NCBI RefSeq assembly: GCF_014199215.1
Contig: NZ_JACIJC010000001.1
Coordinates: 124,001-188,000 of the forward strand
Length of the DNA stretch: 64,000 bases
From: Sphingobium boeckii
GTDB taxonomy: Bacteria > Pseudomonadota > Alphaproteobacteria > Sphingomonadales > Sphingomonadaceae
Reading direction: 5' to 3'
The notes under the pieces were generated by a model. That model did no database searches and was not told the origin of the DNA. It saw only the letters and a program-made list of their open reading frames with translations. Shown here piece after piece: positions 968 through 63,530 of the stretch. The position numbers were made by a program, and so were the translations under genes. How positions within the stretch are numbered: the first letter of the stretch is position 1; each line of letters begins with the position of its first letter.

Positions 968-1753
968 TCAGTGATAGGCGCGGATGAAGAAGACGACCGT
1001 CATGCCCGCGGTGACCAGCAATGTGACGATGCGGATGATGTAGGGCGGCAGGATCCGGCCCAGCCTGGCACCCAATATGCCGCCCACGATCCCACCCAGC
1101 ATCATCGGGACAGCGAATTGCCATACCACCATCGCGCTTGAGACGAAGATGGTCGCCGCCGCCGCATTGGCCATGGCCAGCATCAGCGTGCGCGGCGCGG
1201 CCAGATGATGGGGGGCATGGCCGGCGAGCAATCCCCAGGCGGCGGTCATCATCAGGCCCACGCCACCGCCGAAATAGCCGCCATAGATGCCGAGCAGGAA
1301 CTGAACCACGATCAGCGTCCTCCGCCCGATGGCCACCCGGCTGTGCAGCGCATTGGAGGCATGTTTGCCGAATGCCAGCACCAGCGTGGCCATCAGCAGC
1401 AGCCAGGGGACGATGACGTCGAAGGTCCGCACGGGCGTCGCCACGAGCAGCAGGCTCCCGCCCAGCCCGCCGATGAAGGTGATGATCGTCAGCGCCCGCA
1501 AGCTGAGGCCACCAAGGGGTGCCAATCCGTCCCGATAGGTCCAGGCGCTGGCGATGGCACCGGGCTGGAGCGCGACATTGCTCGTGGCGTTGGCGATGGG
1601 CGACGGCAGGCCCAGCACGATCAGCGCGGGCATGGTGGCGAATGTGCCGCCGCCCGCCAGCGCGTTCATCGCGCCGCCGAGCAATCCTGCGCCTGCAGCC
1701 AGCGGAAGGAAGGAGATATCGTACACCCTGCGCCCATCGCCGGTGACGGCCAT
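968..1753 (-). CDS. TauE/SafE family sulfite/anion exporter
   Basis: This multi-spanning inner-membrane protein of about 261 residues matches the TauE/SafE family, whose characterised members export sulfite, sulfonates or sulfoacetate. The family hallmark GAMNALAGGG lies in the first helix, with a second internal repeat around YFGGGVGLMM, consistent with the duplicated architecture. The ATG at 1753 is chosen; an in-frame TTG at 1774 would add 7 residues. It is first in a minus-strand unit with cytochrome b and a molybdoenzyme. That context points to sulfur-oxyanion metabolism, but the substrate is inferred. Confidence 0.8.
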   Translation of the reverse strand: MAVTGDGRRVYDISFLPLAAGAGLLGGAMNALAGGGTFATMPALIVLGLPSPIANATSNVALQPGAIASAWTYRDGLAPLGGLSLRALTIITFIGGLGGSLLLVATPVRTFDVIVPWLLLMATLVLAFGKHASNALHSRVAIGRRTLIVVQFLLGIYGGYFGGGVGLMMTAAWGLLAGHAPHHLAAPRTLMLAMANAAAATIFVSSAMVVWQFAVPMMLGGIVGGILGARLGRILPPYIIRIVTLLVTAGMTVVFFIRAYH

Positions 1754-32353: not shown

Positions 32354-32379
32354 TCGCGCGCGACAAGCGCAAAGAAAAA

Positions 32380-61724: not shown

Positions 61725-62279
61725 ATGACCAAGCTCACCGTAAACAACCAGCCCGTTCAATATCGCATGGATCCGGCGACGCCCCTGCTCTGGGCGCTGC
61801 GGGACGCCTCCAATCTGACCGGCACGAAATATGGCTGCGGGCGCGGCGATTGCGGGGCGTGTACGGTGGAGATCGATGGTGAGGCGGTGCGCAGTTGCCG
61901 GATGACGCTGGCGGAGGCGGAGGGCCGGTTCGTCACCACGATCGAGGCGCTGTCGCGCGATCGTAGTCATCCTGTGCAGCAGGCGTGGGTGGCCGAAGGG
62001 GTGCCGCAATGCGGCTTCTGTCAATCGGGAATGATCATGGCGGCGGCGGTGTTGCTCAAGAAGAATCCCAATCCGGCGGATGCTGATATCGACGCGGCCA
62101 TCACCAATATCTGCCGTTGTGGCACCTATCCCCGGATCCGCGCCGCGATCCGCCATGCCGCGCGCGTCAATGCAGGAGCCGAGCCGATCGCCGCCGCGCC
62201 GCCGCCGGGGATCGATCCGGCGGATGCGGCGCGCGCCGTGCCCGCGCTCACCCCGCCACCCGCCAAGCCGGGCTCATAG
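61725..62279 (+). CDS. 2Fe-2S subunit of xanthine-dehydrogenase-family enzyme (IorA-like), orphan
   Basis: This electron-transfer subunit of a molybdenum hydroxylase has 184 residues. The plant-type cluster motif is GCGRGDCGACTV, and the second cluster is in CGFCQSGMIMAA with CRCGTYPRIR. A Pro/Ala-rich tail of about 35 residues (AAAPPPGIDPADAARA) is added. The large molybdopterin subunit that usually follows (isoquinoline or aldehyde oxidoreductase beta) is absent; an RcnB-like gene comes next. The N-terminal half is intact, so it can still be functional with a distant partner. Confidence 0.9.
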   Translation: MTKLTVNNQPVQYRMDPATPLLWALRDASNLTGTKYGCGRGDCGACTVEIDGEAVRSCRMTLAEAEGRFVTTIEALSRDRSHPVQQAWVAEGVPQCGFCQSGMIMAAAVLLKKNPNPADADIDAAITNICRCGTYPRIRAAIRHAARVNAGAEPIAAAPPPGIDPADAARAVPALTPPPAKPGS

Positions 62280-62391: not shown

Positions 62392-63309
62392 ATGAGAAAG
62401 TTTTTGATCCTGACGCTGATGGCGGCCACGGCGGCCACGCCTGCGCTCGCACAGCGGGACCGTGGTGAACGCGGCGAGCGTGCACCCCGCGCCGAATCGC
62501 GCGGCGATGGCGGCTATCGCGGCAATCCGGGCGCGGGCGTTCGCGCACCCCGCGCCGAACGCGCGCCGCAGGTCCGCGCGGAGCCGCGTCAGCAGCCGCA
62601 AGCTCAATCCGCGCCGCAACGCGGTTTCAGACAGGACCGCCCCACCAATGGCAGCGGCGATCAGGGCTGGCGCGGCAACCGCGGTGGACAGCCGGGGCGC
62701 GCGGAGCGTGCCACGCCGTCGGTCCGTCCGCAGGCCACGCCCGACGTGCGGCGTGGCGAGCGCGGCGTTCGGGTCCAGCGCGAAACCGTCGGCACGCCAC
62801 GCGCAGGCTGGCAGGGCAATCGCCCGGACACACGCCGCGATGATCGGCAGAGCGTCCGCAACGGCGGTCGCGACGATCGCCAGACCTGGCAGGATCGTTC
62901 CAATCGTGATCGCGGCGATTATCGCCAGGGCAATCGCAACGGTGCCCGCAACGATCGCGCGGATCGCGGCAATGATCGGCGATGGCAGGGCAGCGCTCGC
63001 TGGAATCGCGATTGGCGCAATGACCGTCGCTATGACTGGCGGAGCTATCGCAACCAATATCGCAACATCTACCGCGCGCCGCGCTATTACGGGCCTTCCG
63101 GCTGGAATTATGGTTATCAACGCTTCTCGATCGGCCTGTATCTGAATTCGCTGCTGTTCAGCTCGAATTACTGGCTCGACGATCCCTGGCAATATCGCCT
63201 CCCGCCCGCCGAATATGGCACGCAATGGGTCCGTTATTATAACGATGTGCTGTTGGTCGACGTCGACTCGGGTGAAGTGGTCGATGTGATTTACGACTTC
63301 TTCTACTGA
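62392..63309 (+). CDS. RcnB family protein with Arg/Gly/Asn-rich linker
   Basis: This exported protein of 305 residues has a signal peptide ending PALAQ, then about 180 residues of Arg/Gly/Asn/Gln-rich low-complexity sequence (NGGRDDRQTWQDRSNRDRG), and finally the folded RcnB-like C-terminal domain (residues about 240-305: YRLPPAEYGTQWVRYYNDVL followed by LVDVDSGEVVDVIYDFFY). RcnB of E. coli is a periplasmic factor for nickel/cobalt tolerance; homologues in sphingomonads are mostly uncharacterised. ATG 62392 is preceded by TGGGA. It ends at its own terminator. Confidence 0.88.
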   Translation: MRKFLILTLMAATAATPALAQRDRGERGERAPRAESRGDGGYRGNPGAGVRAPRAERAPQVRAEPRQQPQAQSAPQRGFRQDRPTNGSGDQGWRGNRGGQPGRAERATPSVRPQATPDVRRGERGVRVQRETVGTPRAGWQGNRPDTRRDDRQSVRNGGRDDRQTWQDRSNRDRGDYRQGNRNGARNDRADRGNDRRWQGSARWNRDWRNDRRYDWRSYRNQYRNIYRAPRYYGPSGWNYGYQRFSIGLYLNSLLFSSNYWLDDPWQYRLPPAEYGTQWVRYYNDVLLVDVDSGEVVDVIYDFFY

Positions 63310-63326
63310 TCGCGCTCACGGGAAAA

Positions 63327-63359
63327 GGGCGTCGTCGCACGAGCGGTGACGCCCTTTTT
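63327..63359 (+). terminator. Rho-independent terminator after the RcnB-like gene
   Basis: GGGCGTC (63327-63333) and GACGCCC (63348-63354) form a perfect 7-bp stem followed by five T's, 18 bp after the stop. Confidence 0.9.
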
Positions 63360-63390
63360 GCGCACACACGAGAAAGCTGCAAATATCATT

Positions 63391-63410
63391 TGCAAATCAT
63401 TCTCAATAGC
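63391..63410 (+). promoter_or_regulatory. Fur-box-like site in a gene-free region
   Basis: TGCAAATCATTCTCA (63391-63405) agrees with the 7-1-7 Fur consensus TGATAATNATTATCA at 11 of 14 fixed positions. A second partial unit (TGCAAATATCATT) lies just before it. There is no gene start within 150 bp on either strand. Confidence 0.6.
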
Positions 63411-63414
63411 GTTA

Positions 63415-63530
63415 GTGAGGATGCAGACCTGAACGGATATTCCCGCCCCACGCCCTCCCTTCACGTGGCACGCGGATGCTGGGCTGGCGCACCGAGTTTG
63501 GGTTTTCAAAAAAATGCGCCAGCCCCTTTT
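63415..63530 (+). ncRNA. Candidate Fur-regulated small RNA
   Basis: This stretch of about 110 bases lies between a Fur-box-like site and a perfect hairpin terminator on the plus strand. The interior is CU-rich (CCCGCCCCACGCCCTCCCTT at 63442-63461) and complementary to Shine-Dalgarno-type sequence. Reading frames inside are only a few codons long or run into the hairpin. It is separated from the RcnB-like gene by that gene's own terminator. The 5' end is not determined; no strong -10 is visible. The call is inferred from layout alone. Confidence 0.45.
63481..63530 (+). terminator. Strong hairpin terminator without an upstream gene
   Basis: GGGCTGGCGCA (63481-63491) and TGCGCCAGCCC (63515-63525) are perfect 11-bp arms, followed by CTTTT. 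The loop holds GGTTTTC and AAAAAAA, which can pair. There is no T-run on the opposite strand, so it acts on plus-strand transcripts. Confidence 0.75.

Follow-up and report, generated by a model that had tools for sequence, protein, structure and literature searches.

A candidate Fur-repressed small RNA with an exposed CU-rich loop between converging rcnB-like and efflux genes of a sphingomonad

Near the right end of the window (the whole 64-kb stretch of DNA analysed here, from a genome of 4.03 Mb), two genes converge on an intergenic block that carries a regulatory box and a hairpin of its own, raising the question of whether this block gives rise to an RNA. One neighbour is a plus-strand rcnB-like gene (PF11776), the 3' end of which faces the minus-strand gene of an outer-membrane efflux factor (OMF; PF02321); the latter is part of an RND operon, in which ACR_tran and HlyD genes precede it. 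Read from the rcnB-like gene to the OMF gene, the intergenic order is a terminator, a Fur-like box, a C-rich stretch with CCCTCCCT and an 11-bp hairpin followed by TTTT. The original prediction took this arrangement for an iron-starvation sRNA, and its coordinates and counts for the box, the hairpin and the CU-rich stretch proved correct on re-reading of the letters. The reading favoured here is that of a lineage-restricted, Fur-repressed small RNA, to which a probability of roughly 0.55 is assigned (raised from 0.5 because of two similarly arranged units in congeners). The rcnB-like gene is immediately preceded by a [2Fe-2S] small-subunit-like gene (Fer2, Fer2_2; 61725-62279), for which no large subunit was found among the ten proteins scanned there.

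The Fur-type box and its genomic company

The core of the box, TGCAAATCATTCTCA, occupies 63391-63405 on the plus strand, where a Fur-like 7-1-7 site with 11 of the 14 fixed bases of TGATAATNATTATCA had been claimed and is present as described. Within the 64 kb, the core (GCAAATCATTCTCA) has a single occurrence without mismatch, and with three mismatches allowed its frequency is not above chance (two found against a mean of 4.96 expected). The extra half-sites TGCAAAT (63378-63384) and ATTTGCA (63388-63394), taken together with TGCAAAT (63391) and ATTCTCA (63399), suggest a putative extended operator spanning 63378-63410 on the same strand.

The genome-wide behaviour of the box was assessed with a Fur-type pattern (TGMDAATNATTHKCA, searched with up to one mismatch), the reversed pattern serving as control. 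The genome of the window matches the pattern at 11 places and the control at none, the orphan box being the sole place without a mismatch; since the pattern was composed after this box was known, its rank is partly built in, which does not apply to the enrichment. The other ten places adjoin iron-linked genes in eight cases (Rrf2/IscR, feoB, tonB, three TonB receptors, an fpr-like oxidoreductase and nuoA), and lactate/malate dehydrogenase and GntR genes in the rest; one of the three TonB-receptor places was assigned from coordinates, and nuo is counted as iron-linked because of PMC11475020. Across five genomes of the genus, the pattern is found at 48 places and the reversed control at one (in G002), and the flanks of the boxes are conserved between congeners at several of these genes. 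The 7-1-7 inverted-repeat motif is thus common to iron genes of the window's own genome, which encodes two FUR-family proteins (one strong match, one weak). In Sphingobium SYK-6, Fur1 binds the Fur-box promoters of tonB2, fiuA and feoA (PMC7376174). Apart from these, four of the five congeneric genomes have a Fur-type site ahead of malate dehydrogenase (L136, L160, L172 and L179), and in another genome (G306, locus L119) a Fur-type box at 1501-1519 stands 57 nt upstream of a tRNA-Val gene (1577-1652). The window's genome also holds 76 TonB plug-domain matches in its 4 Mb.

The same box recurs in other genera. In a search of 397 family genomes, the main match outside the own genome is the exact 25-mer ATTTGCAAATCATTCTCAATAGCGT (63388-63412), which is shared by five of the six genomes of the Sphingosinicella group (g106), the named records with an identical box being Sphingosinicella and one Sphingomonadaceae MAG. 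At these loci the 25-mer lies about 50 nt before an fpr-like (ferredoxin-reductase-like) gene, and a cydA-like gene, identified from reading of the locus, diverges from the box. As the 25-mer precedes the fpr-like gene in the same orientation as in the window, rightward transcription from the window's box is suggested. Within the Sphingosinicella group, a Fur box is conserved between the diverging cydA-like and fpr-like genes at nine loci (L078-L082, L138-L140 and L144), with 25 nt identical in L078-L082. The pattern GCAAATNATTCTCANTAGC occurs in 8 of the 397 genomes, one of them the window's own, and the control has no hit among the matches listed. Further, a scan of genome contigs for the box returned seven loci, of which four precede fpr-like genes, one adjoins a TonB-receptor-like gene (called by reading, without Pfam) and two belong to deltaproteobacterial MAGs; no sRNA homologue was seen among the seven. 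In the two MAGs (L142, L143) the same box directly follows TTGACA-16-TATATT; in L143 a frame for a small Cys-rich protein lies downstream of it. The enrichment across the genome, the iron-gene neighbours and the occurrence of the same box before fpr in a sister genus support the claimed Fur box, and the site at 63391-63405 is very probably a genuine one.

The promoter accompanying the box is less distinct. The best plus-strand score is 8 of 12, obtained for a possible -10 element TATCAT (63384-63389) with three tied -35 choices; this element lies no more than 2 nt from the position of TATATT in the deltaproteobacterial MAGs. The score is not special, as the minus strand also reaches 8 and 187 of 1000 random stretches equal it, in agreement with the weak -10 noted before.

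A predicted non-coding RNA with its own terminator

The intrinsic terminator of the rcnB-like gene (63327-63354) has T-runs on either side and is readable on both strands, so that it can also end converging OMF transcripts; neither neighbour therefore needs a second one. Nevertheless, another intrinsic terminator is predicted on the plus strand at 63481-63530, beginning 127 nt past the first, and is without an owner among the neighbouring genes. Its arms, GGGCTGGCGCA (63481-63491) and TGCGCCAGCCC (63515-63525), form 11 pairs around a 23-nt loop and are followed by C-TTTT-C, confirming the perfect 11-bp hairpin with T's that had been reported; the T-run (63527-63530) is found on the plus strand only and consists of just four Ts. 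Terminator-like structures are called six times in the window, at four places, whereas 20 block shuffles give 0.65 on average; the orphan hairpin has the longest stem of the six as long as the T-run is not counted as stem. Once A-T pairs formed by the T-run are included, 11 pairs are likewise reached by the rcnB terminator and by a hairpin at 32375, and the distinct 11-bp repeats in the window number six. The automated terminator scan passed over the orphan hairpin, its loop and T limits being too tight.

From these signals, a plus-strand non-coding RNA of about 110-135 nt is predicted at 63396-63530, with its 5' end within 63396-63421. The claimed absence of a usable reading frame between box and hairpin was borne out by the frame listing and by a Pfam scan of five small frames, none of which gave a credible match. 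On the plus strand, a frame of 48 aa opens at a TTG within the box and continues across the hairpin, another of 43 aa starts at 63476, and the ATG at 63421 opens a frame of three codons. As expected of a regulatory sRNA, the block is by prediction non-coding and closed by an intrinsic terminator, the T-run of which is short.

The predicted fold places a CU-rich stretch in the open. A possible 5' hairpin (CATTCTCA / TGAGGATG, 63398-63423) requires the RNA to start no later than 63396-63398. A middle hairpin (CCGC-CCACG / CGTGG-GCGG) is predicted at 63443-63475, for which an equally stable fold arose in 7 of 500 shuffles, the region having been picked afterwards. Its 11-nt loop, CCCTCCCTTCA (63453-63463), contains the CU-rich stretch at 63453-63460 and may serve as an anti-Shine-Dalgarno seed. 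The predicted unpaired probability of the loop is 0.99-1.0 for RNAs starting at 63396, 63412 or 63421, and with a start at 63406 it is kept in the MFE fold; the CCCTCCC motif claimed earlier is accordingly present, and with each of these four starts it is predicted to lie open in a hairpin loop. In a shuffle test, CCTCC occurred in 55 of 400 shuffles and was fully exposed in three. The overall stability of the fold is ordinary when compared with shuffles (z of -1.06, and +0.58 for the body alone).

Taken together, 63378-63530 would form a small plus-strand transcription unit of its own, for which we infer promoter activity, RNA ends, iron response and targets from the letters. Under iron sufficiency, Fe2+-Fur would sit on the operator at 63378-63410 and block the overlapping promoter; when iron runs short, Fur would leave and an RNA of about 110-135 nt, ending at the hairpin 63481-63530, would be made. 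This RNA would code for nothing and would display CCCUCCC in its 11-nt hairpin loop, which would pair in trans with purine-rich ribosome-binding regions and lower translation. The production of a Fur-repressed short non-coding transcript from the block is fairly probable, and pairing in trans via the CU loop is possible but rather doubtful. A crude duplex test revealed no preference for the starts of TonB receptors (7 starts against 61 window genes, p = 0.87), the starts having been set by a crude Shine-Dalgarno rule that left 7 usable out of 30 TonB loci. A short U-tract makes a poor Hfq site.

Conservation, recurrence of the layout and rival explanations

Conservation of the box-to-hairpin block in close relatives, which the original prediction had put forward as a check, did not hold: with at most two candidates scored per genome, the block was not found in the 396 other family genomes, four congeners included. 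In this family search, 11 of 397 genomes matched (own included), of which five are the g106 box matches; the remaining ones fall in the box region (G160 and G327) or are pieces of 21-31 nt (G144, G250 and G375). A genus search found the block in one of five genomes, namely its own. Among 59 genomes of relatives searched at E 0.001, five matched, own included, and the other four gave only pieces of 27-35 nt. Plasmids gave no match to the block, and no window match exceeded an Rfam gathering score, RF00519 (suhB) included; the best sub-threshold match was Cgb105 (63265-63379, E 0.022, 21.9 bits against 163). The block matches at L086 and L087 were rejected as homologues on ORF calling, both lying inside ORFs, and so was that at L083, which is a terminator: a 22-nt stem and tail match links the orphan terminator to the one after a flavodoxin/FMN-reductase-family (wrbA-like) gene of another genus.

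The surroundings of the block are equally restricted. At E 1e-100, 66 of 199 genomes have a match to the OMF gene, and the flanks of the best 30 of these 66 loci were examined (own and 29 others, 28 of them informative, as L037 has no flank); within 700 nt, none of the 28 has a box-like site of at least 11/14, and L024 and L038 have one of 10/14. The rcnB gene was matched in 165 of 199 genomes, and in the best 30 of the 165 loci, tested for the exact core only, that core is absent outside the own locus. Among the 76 loci compared, the exact core is present only in copies of the window's own place. The rcnB/OMF junction is unlike that of all relatives examined (best 30 OMF and best 30 rcnB loci, own included), and synteny is lost. 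The OMF protein is 74-75% identical in three congeners, G002 having no match at the cut-off. Since the congeners are so distant and the junction differs in all relatives examined, the conservation test has low power for a young RNA, and the absence of the block weakens the sRNA reading without killing it.

The layout of the block, in contrast to its sequence, is predicted to recur in the genus. A congener survey of 47 loci, covering the 48 Fur-type places in five genomes, found three in which the box is followed, on one strand, by a terminator-like hairpin, namely the window's own, L180 (G003, minus strand) and L176 (G003), the last being left out of a strand-neutral count owing to T-run handling. 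Convergent calls at L129 (feoAB) and L133 (nuoA) were miscalls of the crude ORF caller, and L156, also called convergent by it, has no terminator. The L180 unit (1378-1518, minus strand) lies before a gamma-glutamyltranspeptidase-family gene; no usable frame runs from its box to its terminator, which has an 11-bp stem and CTTTTT, and CUUCCCUCACCUCU is exposed in a hairpin. A second unit, L173 (1498-1634, plus strand, in G004), lies before a glutamine-amidotransferase (guaA-like) gene, and its terminal hairpin has no T-run. In both, the right half of the box folds into a 5' hairpin and a GC-rich terminal hairpin follows 67-81 nt after the box. Of 94 box flanks, three were found to expose a CU-rich loop (those of the window's box, L180 and L173), as did 3 of 1000 random, mostly coding window segments (Fisher p = 0.010); the loop was defined after the window had been seen, and leaving the window out gives 2 of 92.

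L180 and L173 are homologous to each other outside the box (they align with a score of 90.6, whereas the highest of 1000 shuffles scores 52.9), their match being the best against 92 other flanks. Neither matches Rfam, and together they are possibly an unnamed iron-regulated RNA family; either could, judging from its position, be a 5' leader of the downstream gene. With the window RNA they have in common the Fur-type box, the 5' hairpin from its right half, the exposed CU-rich loop and the terminal GC hairpin, but they stand at different loci, carry an extra hairpin and lack sequence homology with it (268 and 133 of 1000 shuffles score as high for L180 and L173, respectively). A covariance model of the pair (R1), weak in being built on two sequences with the terminator misaligned in A2, gave no credible match at the window block, its best window matches lying elsewhere. 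That the genus has a class of directly Fur-repressed sRNAs on one plan (box, CU-rich anti-Shine-Dalgarno loop and terminator), in which two congeners would share one member (L180/L173) and the window copy would be a younger and lineage-restricted one, as an alphaproteobacterial counterpart of RyhB, is a doubtful proposal, although slightly raised by this pair.

The main rival, itself unlikely, is that the block is a rearrangement scar: a Fur promoter separated from its gene (a TonB receptor, fpr or another) by loss or relocation now stands beside a foreign terminator, any short RNA being a by-product. The unique junction and the unconserved block would suit such an event, as would the finding that the 25-mer is identical to an fpr promoter in another genus, while a different box belongs to the fpr-like gene of the window's genome, and that an identical terminator stem and tail ends another gene elsewhere (L083). 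However, no coding remnant was found between box and hairpin, the operator and the hairpin both appear intact, a whole-gene deletion sparing both signals 75 nt apart would be a special event, and the layout recurs in L180 and L173. Far less probable is that the Fur-controlled RNA overlaps the OMF mRNA in its 3' UTR, or runs past a weak terminator into it, and so tunes the RND efflux operon in cis under iron limitation; the short T-run at 63527-63530 would allow this, and the minus-strand T-run of the rcnB terminator means that OMF transcripts may cross 63530-63322, antisense to the predicted RNA, yet the 11-bp stem speaks for termination and the arrangement is absent at the OMF orthologues examined. 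It is similarly improbable that no dedicated transcript exists, the box being a decoy or accidental Fur site without a promoter and the hairpin a second rcnB terminator, for although the promoter score is ordinary and tandem terminators exist, accidental boxes this good are rare (no control match in the own genome and one in five genomes) and 127 nt lie between the first hairpin and the start of the second. For the Fur-repressed sRNA, the box, the ownerless terminator, the lack of a frame, the exposed CU loop and the congener layout speak in favour, and the unconserved block, the lost synteny, the ordinary promoter and fold and the short T-run speak against it; the block is a good candidate, with sRNA status by prediction.

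Relation to known small RNAs

RyhB, PrrF, NrrF and FsrA are Fur-repressed sRNAs that are intergenic and short, with a Fur box at the promoter, an intrinsic terminator and no ORF, and Fur-controlled sRNAs elsewhere lower translation by pairing. The predicted window RNA resembles these four in layout and working logic and differs in its CU-rich loop; with no Rfam match, kinship is not indicated. Fur-repressed sRNAs of the RyhB type are named in two Caulobacter studies (PMC3751524; PMC6120978). In the available text of the latter, no conserved Fur box precedes any of its sRNAs, iron-responsive ones included, and one 1-kb RNA with small-protein genes (R0117) is raised in a fur mutant; the former proposes an unidentified iron-responsive sRNA, and also suggests that sRNAs might come from the Fur-repressed operon CC0682-CC0681. 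The window RNA shares with R0117 and CC0681-CC0682 the standing of a candidate Fur-repressed alphaproteobacterial RNA, R0117 differing in its 1-kb length and small-protein genes. RusT of Caulobacter crescentus is an iron-starvation sRNA of 118 nt, controlled by NtrYX, located between lolA and xth and conserved in Caulobacter, for which its authors found no Fur box; they also call it intriguing that the Fur regulon has no identified sRNA (PMC11005374). Compared by description, RusT and the window RNA are both alphaproteobacterial and of similar size, whereas the Fur box is on the window side only. In the accessible parts of the open-access literature, no sphingomonad sRNA with a Fur box was found. 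Sphingomonad loci of this kind, in which an orphan Fur promoter is joined to a putative CU-loop RNA and of which the window copy may be a young example, are offered as cheaply testable candidates for the missing sRNA arm of the Fur regulon.

The CU-rich loop has its own precedents. The anti-Shine-Dalgarno sRNAs alpha-r14 and NfeR1 have three hairpins, each with CCUCCUCCC, in which the CU-rich motif is unpaired (PMC10746234); a loop-borne anti-Shine-Dalgarno motif is likewise predicted in the window RNA, which has one such loop, with CCCUCCC, and no family match. SuhB/MmgR (RF00519) is a trans-acting sphingomonad sRNA with a CU-rich stretch and a terminator, reported to be highly conserved in Sphingopyxis (PMC6563040), and the window candidate is alike in both features without matching RF00519.

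A gathering-score Rfam scan of the 46 other Fur loci yielded just two matches, to suhB in L176 and to a tRNA in L162. The stretch 1501-1657 of L176 (G003) carries a Fur-like 15-mer, TGCGAATGAATTGCA, about 70 nt upstream of the match to the known suhB/mmgR sRNA (RF00519, 46.5 bits, gathering 41); this box may not control suhB. In a plasmid search, the suhB-like sequence of L176 (1495-1660) was matched by 41 records of sphingomonad type, of which 26 are predicted to be conjugative; the best 20 of the 41 matches do not cover the box. The same 15-mer also precedes malate dehydrogenase in two other congeners.
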